This document shows, in pieces, positions 4,779 through 45,627 of a DNA stretch of 64,000 bases (position 1 is the stretch's first letter; each line of letters starts with the position of its first letter). A program made the translations under genes and the position numbers. The stretch lies in contig NZ_JAGGMR010000001.1 of the NCBI RefSeq assembly GCF_017875645.1, forward strand, positions 6,324,001 through 6,388,000, read 5' to 3'. Under the pieces are notes generated by a model. The model did no database searches. It saw only the letters and a program-made list of their open reading frames with translations, and had not been told where the DNA came from. Origin of the DNA: Nocardia goodfellowii. Its GTDB lineage: Bacteria > Actinomycetota > Actinomycetes > Mycobacteriales > Mycobacteriaceae.

Positions 4779-6098
4779 TCAGCGTGGCTCGACCGACACC
4801 GGATCGCCGCAACTGTCGGGCAGCGCGATCAGTGCGCACGGTGCCGGCTGGCGCGTCGGCCGGTAGGTGGAGGGCACGCCGTGGTTTTCGGTGATTTCGC
4901 GGTAGGCCGCCACCGCGACGGTCGGGCGGCGGGTCAGGGCGGGGTCGTGGACGGCGTCGACGCTGTAGAGGCCGAACCGGGGGCCGTATTCACCCCATTC
5001 GTAGTTGTCGGTGAGGCTCCAATAGTTGTAGGAGACGACGTTGATGCCGTCTCGGCGTGCGCGCTGAATCCAATAGACGGTGTCGCGGAGATGGTCGTCG
5101 CGGCGGTACCCGTCGGCGCGGTTCTGATTCGCGTCGGTAGCCAATCCGTTCTCGATGACCCGCAGCGGTTTGCCCGGATATTTGGCGGCGAAATAGCGCA
5201 GCACGTAATACATGCTCTCCGGTGATTGCGGCAGATTCCAGAACGAGCCACCCGAGGTGGCGAACGACGCCAGTTCCGACGGCGCGATCGAGTAGTACTG
5301 GTCGACGCCGATGAAGTCGAAGGAATCGACCATACGGTCGGAGAACATGGCTTCCAGCGCGGGTTCCACGCCGGGCAGGGGGATGTAGGCGATGTTCGAG
5401 GAGACCTGGCCCCCGGGCTGCACGGCATGGATGTAAGACGTGATCGCCCGATGAGCCGCGATGATCCCATCGACCATGAGTCCGGTGTTGGCCGGTGCCA
5501 AACCGCCGTAGGTCAGTTCCCGCCGGACGTATTCGCTGGGCTCGTTGAATGTGATCCAGATGGGCTCGGCCCAGGTATAGCGATCAACGACGCGTCGCCC
5601 GAATGCAGTCAGGGCCGCGGCCATCTCCGGGTTGTTCCATCCTCCACGATCGACCGCCCAACCAGGATGAACCCAGTGATTCAACGTGATCATGGGGCGC
5701 ATGCCCGAGGCTACGACGCGGCCGATCACCGCGTCGTAGAACGCCCAGCCGGCCGCGTCGTCGACACCGGGCTGCGGCTCGACGCGCGACCACTCCACCG
5801 ACAGGCGATAGTTGTCCACGCCGATCGAGGCCGCCCTGGCCACATCGCCCTCGTACTGATGGAAGAAGTCCACGGCGTTTCCCACCGGCTCGTGCAACTT
5901 GCCGTCGTTGCCGTAGCGCAGGTAGTTCGAGTCGTGGTTGAAACCTTCGGACTGGAAACCGGATTGAGCGACCCCGAACTCGAAGTCCGCCGGTAACGCG
6001 GGAAGGTCTTCGGCCGCCGAGGGGGCCGCGAGGGTGGTGAGGGCCAGCACTGAGACCACTGCGGACACCATCGCGGGGACAGTTGCCGATCGACGCAT
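4779..6098 (-). CDS. Exported family 1 glycoside hydrolase
   Basis: A 439-residue retaining beta-glycosidase of family GH1. The acid/base motif TFNEP (Glu186) and nucleophile motif VIENG (Glu316) are intact, and the C-terminal NYEWGEYGPRFGLYSVD is the usual aglycone/glycone-site region. The first 29 residues form a Sec signal peptide (basic start, hydrophobic core, APSAAE), so the enzyme should act outside the membrane, which is unusual for GH1 because most are cytosolic. Start ATG 6098 has GAGGAAG upstream. The substrate (beta-glucoside, galactoside or other) cannot be decided. No sugar transporter sits beside it; the divergent neighbour is an ABC exporter. Confidence 0.9.
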   Translation of the reverse strand: MRRSATVPAMVSAVVSVLALTTLAAPSAAEDLPALPADFEFGVAQSGFQSEGFNHDSNYLRYGNDGKLHEPVGNAVDFFHQYEGDVARAASIGVDNYRLSVEWSRVEPQPGVDDAAGWAFYDAVIGRVVASGMRPMITLNHWVHPGWAVDRGGWNNPEMAAALTAFGRRVVDRYTWAEPIWITFNEPSEYVRRELTYGGLAPANTGLMVDGIIAAHRAITSYIHAVQPGGQVSSNIAYIPLPGVEPALEAMFSDRMVDSFDFIGVDQYYSIAPSELASFATSGGSFWNLPQSPESMYYVLRYFAAKYPGKPLRVIENGLATDANQNRADGYRRDDHLRDTVYWIQRARRDGINVVSYNYWSLTDNYEWGEYGPRFGLYSVDAVHDPALTRRPTVAVAAYREITENHGVPSTYRPTRQPAPCALIALPDSCGDPVSVEPR

Positions 6099-37991: not shown

Positions 37992-39392
37992 CTAGCGGTA
38001 TCCGCCGTCGGATAGTCCCGCGTCTTCCTCGGTCTCGTTGCCGCCGGTAACCCGCTCCCACAGATAGGAGGCCAGGAAGGCGGTGCCGCCTTCGTGCGCC
38101 CATTGGCGGGAGTGACGCTCCTCGTGGTGCAGCAGTCGGTCCATGTCGAGTTCACCGCGGAACGGGCCGTCGGCACCCTCGCCCCACACCTGTCCCGACT
38201 TCGCCACCTCTCGAAGCTGCGGCGCCGGGTCTTTCGGGTTATCGATGTCCAGCATGAACATGTCGCCCCAGGTGGTTCCGCCGCCTTGGCTGAACTGATC
38301 CTGGACGACATTCCCACCCAAGCCCATCATTATGCCGTTCGGGGTGGTCACTATCCGCCCACCGTTGTCGTGCACAAATCCCACGTCTTTGTGGTAGCTC
38401 CAGGAGTTCTGGCGTTGCCGGTCGGCGATTCGCCACAGTGCGCCAGATCCGTACGGAACCGGCCCGAAGTCGGTCGTTTCGCCTTCTGTGCCGTAATCGG
38501 TGCCCGCGTTCAGGAGGTAGGTCATCCGCACCGCCTTTGTGGCGTCGTCCGCGCTGATGTCGGTCGGCAGCAGGAAATACGACTTGAAGATCCCGTCGCC
38601 GTCCTCGTCTTCGCGAATCTCTTTCATTCCGTCGAGGATTTCGAAGTCCTCGGGCGTGATGCGGTGTTCGGCGGCGATCTTGACGATGGTGTCGATCGAC
38701 ACGCGCCGGCGCACAGCGTTCTCGAGCCACTGCCGGTAGTAGCCGGACGCGGATGGCCCGGTCAGCAGCCCGGCGTCGCGCAAAGCCTGCTCCATCTCGA
38801 CCATTCGAGCGTCGATCTTTCCGGCCTTGCTGGCATCTGCCAGGGTGGTCGCCCCGTGGTCTCTGATTTTACGGTCCAGCGCGAGTTGCATCACCCGGGC
38901 GAGAGCGGCATCGATACCGCGCGCCGTATCGAGTATCGCCTTGGTCTCCTGTTCCAGCTGCTTCCTGATCGATGCGCGGTGCCGGTCGGCCACGGCGCGC
39001 TGCTCGGACTCGAGCAGAGACATCGGTAGCGGATCGGCGGGCTTGTCGTCCACGATCGCGCCGTCGGCGGCGATTGTGAATTGGTAAGTGCCTGCGAGAT
39101 AGTCGTTGTCGGCGACCCGGCGTTTCAGGGCGGACACGTCGTCCGACGCGCTTTGCAAGGCGTATTCGACGGCGGACAGCTCCGCGACCAGAATTTCGGC
39201 ATTGTTGCGCGTATTTCCCAGCGAACTGCGAACGCGCTCGCTCGCAGTGCCGCGCCAGGCGGGTAATGTCTTGGCGTCGTCGAGTTCGTCCTGCAGCCTG
39301 ATGAGTTTGTCTCGCCGCCCAGCCAGGTTGACGGCCACCGTATCGAGCTCCTCGGCGTCCCAGGCGCGGACGTCGTGGTAGCCGATAGTCAT
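37992..39392 (-). CDS. WXG-domain protein with C-terminal HExxH motif
   Basis: A 466-residue candidate type VII secretion substrate. The N-terminal 100 residues are helical with a WXG turn (AWRG, Trp46-Gly48) as in WXG100/LXG proteins; a long helical linker (130-260) follows; the C-terminal 150 residues have TTWGDMFMLDIDNP and then HHEERHSRQWAHEGG, in which His423-Glu424...His427 is an HExxH zinc-protease-type motif, and end EEDAGLSDGGY. EDEDGDG (261-267) may bind calcium. ATG 39392 overlaps the stop of the small helical gene (ATGA). Either a secreted toxin/protease or a structural relative; no immunity gene is obvious. Confidence 0.7.
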   Translation of the reverse strand: MTIGYHDVRAWDAEELDTVAVNLAGRRDKLIRLQDELDDAKTLPAWRGTASERVRSSLGNTRNNAEILVAELSAVEYALQSASDDVSALKRRVADNDYLAGTYQFTIAADGAIVDDKPADPLPMSLLESEQRAVADRHRASIRKQLEQETKAILDTARGIDAALARVMQLALDRKIRDHGATTLADASKAGKIDARMVEMEQALRDAGLLTGPSASGYYRQWLENAVRRRVSIDTIVKIAAEHRITPEDFEILDGMKEIREDEDGDGIFKSYFLLPTDISADDATKAVRMTYLLNAGTDYGTEGETTDFGPVPYGSGALWRIADRQRQNSWSYHKDVGFVHDNGGRIVTTPNGIMMGLGGNVVQDQFSQGGGTTWGDMFMLDIDNPKDPAPQLREVAKSGQVWGEGADGPFRGELDMDRLLHHEERHSRQWAHEGGTAFLASYLWERVTGGNETEEDAGLSDGGYR

Positions 39393-39706
39393 CCCCCGAA
39401 AGCCTTTACCGCGAGATCCTCGTTGTCGGAGTACAACTCCGCGGCCGAGGCGACCGCCGCACTCCAATAACCGACCTCGCCTGCCCACCCTTTCGCGCGC
39501 TCATTGAACGTCAACGCCAGGGTGCGGCCGCTCCTTGCCGCATCCCCACCGGGCAATGCCGCCGCGATCGCGTCCAAGCCGGTGCCCGGGTCCAACGCGC
39601 CGGCCTGACCTGCGGCAGATCCCGCCGCCTCGGCAGCTGACCGCAGCTGACCGATCTCGAGCTCGAACCCGCCCACATCCCGCGACCCGACGCCTGAATC
39701 CATCAT
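39389..39706 (-). CDS. Small WXG100-like helical partner
   Basis: A 105-residue, Ala/Gly-rich helical protein (FELEIGQLRSAAEAAGSAAG ... LALTFNERAKGWAGEVGYWS). The WAG turn (GWAGEVG) and length fit ESAT-6/WXG100-type or LXG-associated small proteins that form dimers with the effector and guide it to the ESX machine. Co-translated with the following WXG-HExxH gene (4-base overlap). Two adjacent ATGs (39706, 39703); no clear ribosome-binding site. No signal peptide, as expected. Confidence 0.65.
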   Translation of the reverse strand: MMDSGVGSRDVGGFELEIGQLRSAAEAAGSAAGQAGALDPGTGLDAIAAALPGGDAARSGRTLALTFNERAKGWAGEVGYWSAAVASAAELYSDNEDLAVKAFGG

Positions 39707-43977: not shown

Positions 43978-44706
43978 ATGACGGTTAAAGTTGATGAGGC
44001 ACAGTTGCAGAAGCTTCAGACCGAAATTGAGCGCGCGCAGGGCGCACTCGTGCACGGACTGAGCCTGATGAACGGCGCGTCCGTGCAGGCCAGCGGGATC
44101 GAGCAGCTATTGCTCGGATCCACTGTCACCCCGTTCGGTAACACCGCCGGTGGCCAGGCCTGCCATTCAGCGCATTCGGAGATCTACACCGGCGGATCGA
44201 ACACTGTGAAGGCTTTCGCGGGCACAGTCGACTCGGACGCCGAGCGAATGCGGATGGCGCTGGGGTTGTATCGGATCATGGACGACGAGAACGCCGAGAA
44301 TCTGATGAAGCTCAATGGTCATGTGCTCGACTTCCTCAGTACCCACTTGAGCAAGTCCGACGATGGATTCGGCGACGAGCAGGCCGCGCAGATCAACAAG
44401 CTGCGGGGCCTGGTCGCCGATCTGAACGCCGGCAATGTCGTGGTCGGCGGCGACTTCAACGCGGTGACCAACGACGGCAGCCCGTCCGCACAGGCGATCC
44501 GCAATTTCGCCGGCAACGGCTTCGATACCGACGCGGGCACTATCCACGACGGCCCGGGCGGTGCACCGTTCGGCACCTCGGCGAGCAATCGGCCCATCGA
44601 TCACTACCTGCCGCGCGGCCTGGGCACGGCCCCGGCCGAACGCTGGTATCGGGAGCAGTCCGACCACGACGGGCAACGCGTGGACCTGACGCTGCCCGCC
44701 TGGTAG
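43978..44706 (+). CDS. ESX/WXG-like domain fused to C-half of EEP nuclease
   Basis: A 242-residue fusion. Residues 1-110 are a helical ESX-substrate-type domain (MTVKVDEAQLQKLQTEIERA ... VKAFAGTVDSDAERMRMALG) followed by YRIMDDENAE, a YxxxD/E secretion-signal-like motif (Tyr98, Asp102). From residue 113 the sequence is the second half of an endonuclease/exonuclease/phosphatase domain: NGHVLDFLSTHL (His123), VVVGGDFNAVT (158-161), RPIDHYLPRG and EQSDHDGQRV (Asp229-His230). The first half of the domain is missing here but is encoded by the convergent gene three bases away. ATG 43978 has a weak ribosome-binding site. No signal peptide, as expected for ESX substrates. Confidence 0.8.
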   Translation: MTVKVDEAQLQKLQTEIERAQGALVHGLSLMNGASVQASGIEQLLLGSTVTPFGNTAGGQACHSAHSEIYTGGSNTVKAFAGTVDSDAERMRMALGLYRIMDDENAENLMKLNGHVLDFLSTHLSKSDDGFGDEQAAQINKLRGLVADLNAGNVVVGGDFNAVTNDGSPSAQAIRNFAGNGFDTDAGTIHDGPGGAPFGTSASNRPIDHYLPRGLGTAPAERWYREQSDHDGQRVDLTLPAW

Positions 44707-44709
44707 ACC

Positions 44710-45627
44710 TCAGCGATCGACAATCACACGGACCCGAGTGGCGGAGCGCTTTTCGTCGCCGGGTCCGAGGTCGGTCACCGTCGGGTCCCCGGTGGCGATC
44801 AAGCCGCTACCGGTCCGGACAGCGACGGCGTTGCCGAAATCGGCAGGGATTCCCAGGTATCGAGCCTGGCCCTTCCATGAGGCCGGACCGAAGTGGACCT
44901 CCCAGTTACCGTTCGGGTCGCGCTCGTTCAACTCCTCCTGCAACTTTTTCGCCCCGCTACCGAAGAGTTCCTGCAAGGTCGCCACGTCCACTTTGCCGTC
45001 GATGACTCGCTGCGCCAGTTCACCCATGTCGCCGTTTTGGTAGCCCTGTTTCGCGCGGAACTTGTTGCCGTTGCCGCCCTGCTGAACATTCCAATTCAGT
45101 GTGCGTAGCGTGCGCCGGGTCCAGGTGCTCTCGAGCGTCTTGAATTCGGTCACCGCCGCACGGAAGGCCGCGGTCTGCGGCGCGAGTTGCGCGTCCACGC
45201 GGGCCCGAATGTCGTTGTAGGCCTTGACCAATTTCTCGACCAGCTCGTCCTCGTCTTCGTCCTGTGGGTCGAGGGTGACGACACCGTCGGAATCCACGCT
45301 CATCCGCACTTTTCCCTGGAGCTTGGATTTCTCGTTGTCCAACTGCGCCTGGTTGAAGCGCAGGGTATGGATGCACGCGTTCACCGCGGTGGCGGCCCGG
45401 CCTGCCAGGTCCGCGCATTTGTCGACGTCGGCGACGAGTTTTCGGCGGTGACCGTCGTAGCGTTCGGACGCGGGCCCGGCCCAGCCGCGCCCGACCACGC
45501 TGTTCGCCGCGCCGTTGATGGTGTCGGCCGCCCAGGACGATTTCTCTTTCAGCGATTTCCACGCGGACTCGTATGAGCCGAGCTTTGCCAGATCAGCTTC
45601 GAGGTCTTTGACATAGGTGACTGCCAT
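44710..45627 (-). CDS. WXG100-like domain fused to N-half of EEP nuclease
   Basis: A 305-residue fusion. Residues 1-150 are a helical WXG100/LXG-type region with the turn GRGWAGPAS (Trp49-Gly51). From residue 172 the sequence is the first half of an endonuclease/exonuclease/phosphatase domain: LRTLNWNVQQGG (catalytic Asn180), VDVATLQELF (catalytic Glu220) and FGNAVAVRTGSGL, and it ends RSATRVRVIVDR, exactly the strand before the THL-containing strand found in the convergent partner. The GDFN and SDH motifs are absent here. ATG 45627 has CAGGA upstream; the longer frame to 45669 is not needed. Neither half alone should be a complete active site. Confidence 0.8.
   Translation of the reverse strand: MAVTYVKDLEADLAKLGSYESAWKSLKEKSSWAADTINGAANSVVGRGWAGPASERYDGHRRKLVADVDKCADLAGRAATAVNACIHTLRFNQAQLDNEKSKLQGKVRMSVDSDGVVTLDPQDEDEDELVEKLVKAYNDIRARVDAQLAPQTAAFRAAVTEFKTLESTWTRRTLRTLNWNVQQGGNGNKFRAKQGYQNGDMGELAQRVIDGKVDVATLQELFGSGAKKLQEELNERDPNGNWEVHFGPASWKGQARYLGIPADFGNAVAVRTGSGLIATGDPTVTDLGPGDEKRSATRVRVIVDR

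Follow-up and report, generated by a model that had tools for sequence, protein, structure and literature searches.

In the parts of PMC9600955 that treat them, substrates of the type VIIa secretion system (T7SSa) are described as obligate heterodimers whose pairing is required before secretion. The type VII export signal is composite, its WxG and YxxxD parts lying on different chains, as passages of PMC9600955 and PMC10730906 have it. In ESX and PE-PPE heterodimers (EsxAB, EsxEF and PE25-PPE41) both partners are helical; one carries WxG and its mate YxxxD/E. The LXG toxins of T7SSb in Bacillota similarly combine a toxin with helical Lap partners, a composite signal and FxxxD in the partner (PMC9600955, PMC10730906). 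In these systems the LXG chain bears the toxin domain, and targeting is the role of the partners. Here we describe two convergent genes of Nocardia goodfellowii, within a 64,000-nucleotide stretch of contig NZ_JAGGMR010000001.1 (the window) from a genome of 8.0 Mb in two contigs. Each partner bears half of an endonuclease/exonuclease/phosphatase (EEP) enzyme, unlike the ESX and PE-PPE heterodimers and unlike the LXG-Lap systems. From the sequence, with a probability of roughly three in four (0.74), the two genes form an obligate type VII-type pair that jointly encodes one EEP-type phosphodiesterase or nuclease, with an active site that would be complete only when the chains are paired. An earlier note on this DNA had reported two convergent open reading frames (ORFs) with stops 3 bp apart, and their positions were confirmed:

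43978..44706, plus strand: C-half gene, 242 amino acids (aa), an ESX/partner-like helical domain followed by the EEP second half
43978..44313, plus strand: partner-like helical domain of the C-half, residues 1-112, from a profile-profile match and a predicted model
44269..44283, plus strand: YxxxD export-type motif of the C-half, residues 98-102, from the family alignment
44314..44703, plus strand: EEP second half on the C-half, residues 113-242, with H123, D159, N161, D208, D229 and H230
44707..44709, no strand: 3 bp spacer separating the two stop codons, from the ORF coordinates
44710..45627, minus strand: N-half gene, 305 aa, a WXG/PPE-like helical domain followed by the EEP first half
45112..45627, minus strand: WXG100/PPE-like helical domain of the N-half, residues 1-172
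45475..45483, minus strand: W-x-G turn of the N-half, residues 49-51, from the family alignment
44713..45111, minus strand: EEP first half on the N-half, residues 173-305, with N180 and Q219-E220

Protein searches returned 36 N-halves and 32 C-halves from Nocardia, Herbihabitans, Plantactinospora and Asanoa, and an N-half from Saccharopolyspora. The N-half alignment has 35 rows, as P0036 was omitted for a large internal deletion. Source annotation often labels a C-half 'endonuclease/exonuclease/phosphatase family protein' and an N-half 'hypothetical protein', which makes the pair easy to miss. The C-half protein of the window covers positions 120-225 of PF03372, the last half of the EEP profile, and the N-half protein matches its first part (positions 2-78) weakly. 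Scanned singly, three of five N-halves exceeded the PF03372 cut-off. Across the families, PF03372 was matched at E<=0.01 by 22/35 N-half members and 31/32 C-half members, and the weak call on the N-half of the window becomes firm because so many of its relatives match. Predicted models of the N-half and C-half match complementary halves of solved EEP enzymes. Each model matched one half only, which gives no sign that either is a complete fold by itself. ExoIII, APE1 and TDP2 thus resemble both halves in fold and have the same catalytic residues, but the solved members matched are single chains, whereas the split pair is cut near the middle of the fold. The EEP domain was divided over two chains in every member found. 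The proposal in the earlier note of one EEP domain divided over two ESX/WXG-type proteins therefore describes an arrangement that is conserved in relatives. A split intein was considered and rejected, as no intein family occurred among the Pfam matches of the 35 N-halves and 32 C-halves, the one intein test made.

The residues expected of an EEP active site are distributed over the two families. N180 and E220 are invariant in all 35 N-halves, and D159, N161, D208, D229 and H230 are invariant in all 32 C-halves; H123 is kept in 28 of the C-halves and is Q in the other four. In 18 intact EEPs the equivalent positions are fully or almost fully conserved, and these residues (N, E, D-x-N, D and D-H) are the catalytic ones of the family. 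Even at the greatest divergence read, where the C-halves share 27-36% and the N-halves 30-43% identity with those of the window, the pairs keep all the catalytic residues. The catalytic motifs are therefore shared out between the halves in the relatives as they had been said to be in the window. Codon differences were greatest at the third position in all four domains and with every relative compared (0.28/0.19/0.49 at positions 1/2/3 for the N-half against that of relative G012), and first positions differed at least as much as second ones in all comparisons. At the codon level, the N-half and the C-half sequences thus both look like genes under purifying selection. When the two halves of 24 N/C pairs were placed in separate trees, these had 14/21 splits in common, compared to a mean of 0.18 and a maximum of 2 in 1000 label shuffles. 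This number is far above the shuffled mean, suggesting that the halves travel together. Seventeen of the tree pairs were matched via equally long contigs and seven by locus; the contig-based matching gave a C-half for 17/36 N-halves, and the rest could not be paired in this way.

The first domains of the two proteins (~112 residues in the C-half and ~172 in the N-half) are mostly helix in the models and of type VII type. The C-half model has helices at residues 7-33 and 57-100, and the motif [Y/F]xxx[D/E] follows the second helix in 32/32 members, the first position being Y in 31 members and F in one, and the last being D in 29 and E in three. In a single profile-profile comparison, this domain matched five small partners of tandem WXG proteins with an E-value of 2.9e-10. 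The helical domain model of the N-half matches PPE and EsxEF structures, and alignment, model and structural matches all indicate a helical hairpin with a W-x-G turn, in which W is present in 35/35 members and G in 33/35. In the VIA-align results for the N-half, BAR-domain proteins took up the rows, with Z as high as that of PPE or higher; among helical bundles such a likeness reflects a common arrangement only, and it was set aside. With WxG and YxxxD on separate chains, the two proteins fit the composite type VII signal, and a heterodimer uniting the enzyme halves would be expected. Two EccC-type ATPases of type VII secretion were found above the curated cut-off in the genome, far from the window.

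The layout of the two genes is fixed. The halves lie tail to tail in 13/13 loci with a readable flank, namely the window, G012, G033, G054, G520, G526, G386 (Herbihabitans), G481, G993, G952 (twice), G1009 and G978; G981:C93 was left out because its sequence ends at the N-half stop. This convergent layout differs from the same-strand, side-by-side arrangement of WXG100 and PE-PPE partners. Twelve loci, window included, had both stops read, and the stop-to-stop gap was 3-14 bp in 11 of them: 3 bp in the window, 9 in G012, 6 in G033, 3 in Herbihabitans, 8 in G054, 3 in G520, 3 in G526 and, from coordinates, 3 in G993, 4 and 3 in G952 and 14 in G1009. The convergent 3' ends of the twelfth, the divergent pair L139 (G978), overlap by 20 bp at 5792-5811, and its GDFN motif reads FDGN. 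Stops 3-14 bp apart leave no room for a terminator, and transcription of each gene probably continues into the other, so that the transcripts overlap in antisense. Both frames are intact in 10/13 pairs, so it is not the case that one half is always decayed. The other three are damaged: L061 (G520) has a C-half without its first ~60 residues, L062 (G526) has an N-half without the WXG part, and L049 (G481) has frame breaks in both halves. A further locus, L134 (G981:C2; 4487-5839, minus strand), holds an N-half WXG part that is 80% identical to P0021 over 153 residues and continues into an unrelated 450 aa frame without an EEP part. No C-half match was seen within the 11 kb examined around it, and L134 is a remnant or a domain swap.

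None of the 36 N-halves and 32 C-halves spans the cut. The searches with each half-profile scored only ~8000 candidates apiece. An unsplit chain of ~430 aa would fall within the length limits of the N-half search (0.55-1.75 of 305 aa) but only barely within those of the C-half search (up to ~424 aa). When the EEP-N region alone was used as the query, 11 proteins were obtained among 223 candidates, every one a split N-half. No unsplit, full-length WXG-EEP member was seen in these protein searches or in the genome samples of the genus, the order, the phylum and one further family. Since the genome sets were samples and the candidates scored were limited, an unsplit member may exist.

The genome samples show where the pair itself is kept. 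When 98 genomes of the genus were first searched using the N-half, four loci with an EEP part were obtained, the window's own included, and in all four the C-half lies on the opposite strand just past the stop; the same was observed in Herbihabitans rhizosphaerae. Among 150 genomes of the genus, the N-half profile matched 15, with the EEP part present in six, and the C-half profile matched eight, with a full score in the same six genomes that have an EEP N-half. The remaining matches (nine by the N-half profile and two by the C-half profile) cover just the WXG domain or just the general EEP part. The order sample (397 genomes) had 30 matches to the N-half profile and 34 to the C-half profile, mostly over one general domain, and the pair was found only in the window genome, G386 (Herbihabitans) and G481. 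In the phylum sample (396 genomes), only the window genome had a C-half at E<=1e-7. In a further family of the order, sampled with 200 genomes, 45 genomes matched the N-half at E<=1e-8, and the EEP part was present in G981, G993, G952 (twice), G1009 and G978. Other genomes thus keep both halves, the tail-to-tail pair occurring in Nocardia, in Herbihabitans and its family, and in a third family of the order. The C-half had no match in 72,556 plasmid records. A separate observation in the 200-genome family is that WXG-domain proteins are expanded in G955, which has eight matches to the domain in frames 360-865 aa long.

Inferring from these data how the pair might work, we propose that an EEP enzyme has been cut near the midpoint of its fold and placed with one half on each chain. 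The N-half would ride on a large WXG/PPE-like domain, which normally heads a toxin, and the C-half on a small YxxxD-bearing partner domain, which normally stands alone. The helical domains would pair like ESX or PE-PPE partners, forming the composite WxG + YxxxD export signal and drawing the enzyme halves together, so that a complete active site would exist in the pair only. Its probable target is the nucleic acid, or some other phosphodiester, of a competing cell. Descriptions of type VII substrates give them a helical targeting domain and a functional domain, aided by small partners, and here the helper bears half the catalytic domain. If this is true, partner pairing would switch enzyme activity and might allow a dangerous enzyme to be held in check with no immunity protein. 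The pair would also serve as a natural scaffold for split enzymes and could show cleanly where type VII partners come together and fold. No description of such a split pair was found in the open-licence papers searched; a passage on 'two halves' in one review concerns, in the part that mentions them, EsaD-EsaG and not a split EEP pair.

Where the enzyme would be assembled bears on how the producer is protected. Across eight loci, no ORF of at least 90 aa besides the pair was common to more than two, in a comparison that would miss smaller or locus-specific genes. Three ORF families each occur in two loci only (G033 and G054, with ~420-487 aa and several copies; G054 and G526; G481 and G520), and they stand at differing distances from the pair. 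Without a third gene in common, the pair looks like a self-contained cassette, and an immunity gene, if any, is probably outside it. One tentative reading is that of a natural split toxin, with each partner serving both as effector and as chaperone and exporting half an EEP nuclease. Activity would require the two chains to come together, perhaps nowhere but in the target cell or otherwise outside the producer, and this requirement would take the place of an immunity gene. It is also conceivable, and we hold it with similar reserve, that the pair assembles inside the producer as an active or latent enzyme before export. The split would then be unrelated to self-protection, and safety would come from an unlinked immunity gene, target specificity or inhibition. 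In the sections of PMC9600955 on T7SSa, substrates are obligate heterodimers for which pairing is a prerequisite for secretion, and on this basis the pair is no less likely to assemble inside the producer than outside. The lack of any gene beyond the pair in more than two of the eight loci agrees with immunity not being part of the cassette, but no candidate immunity gene was seen.

The conserved residues bear on a different possibility, that the halves are no longer catalytic and form a binding pair (a scaffold, an inhibitor or a surface protein) that keeps the fold. The Q in place of H123 in 4/32 C-halves would be compatible with this. However, a scaffold would not need the N180 and E220 of the 35 N-halves or the D159, N161, D208, D229 and H230 of the 32 C-halves, which are invariant in divergent pairs too, and we regard a non-catalytic pair as quite improbable. 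The earlier note had offered an inactivated toxin as its alternative, in which a recent rearrangement cut the gene and the pieces are decaying. One inversion would give the observed layout, and 3/13 pairs are damaged, but the same cut and layout recur in 13/13 loci and in deep branches, 10 of the pairs are intact, and both halves carry the codon pattern of purifying selection. The conserved pairs in relatives practically exclude decay, and the locus looks like a natural two-part enzyme rather than a broken gene. Convergent halves could in principle also be switched by inversion, either as a phase-variable cassette in which the segment is reversed in some cells to give one long chain, or as an assembly artefact. 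An imperfect inverted pair (44357-44378 and 44753-44774; 22 nt, 77%) does lie near the ends of the EEP-C segment, but this best inverted match of 17/22 nt is at chance level, being equalled by 2/37 random position pairs. Among six relatives the end match was ordinary in five and again 17/22 in G033 (2/35 random pairs), the longest exact word common to the regions near both ends was 6 nt, and all 13 loci have one orientation. An inversion switch or artefact is thus hardly credible.

The proposed two-part enzyme may have arisen from an ordinary partner-toxin arrangement. The nearest relatives of the N-half helical domain in the same order sit on long single chains. Peptidase_M91 (PF14891) and RTX were identified by profile in the long WXG chains of G093 and G252, and the chain of G048 reads like RTX and M91 by eye; these chains belong to a larger set of long frames, G008 included, that match the N-half first domain. 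In 5/5 loci looked at (G110, G093, G048, G252 and G360), a small partner gene lies ahead of the WXG gene in the same orientation, and the small partner has YxxxD or FxxxD in four of them, with none in G360. These tandem pairs resemble the split pair in that the WXG domain is related to that of the N-half and the small partner to the first domain of the C-half. In contrast, their two genes are co-directional and no EEP part was seen in them. The relationship to the small tandem partners suggests that the C-half is a partner that took on half an enzyme. As the simplest origin, one ancient inversion of the second half of the enzyme would have fused that half to a convergent partner gene. Separately, ~4 kb from the split genes, the window holds a 105 aa ORF with YSDNE near its end (by eye), co-directional with a 460 aa WXG-like protein (WXG100, E 0.023); this pair, at 37992-39706 on the minus strand, looks like an ordinary tandem partner-toxin pair.
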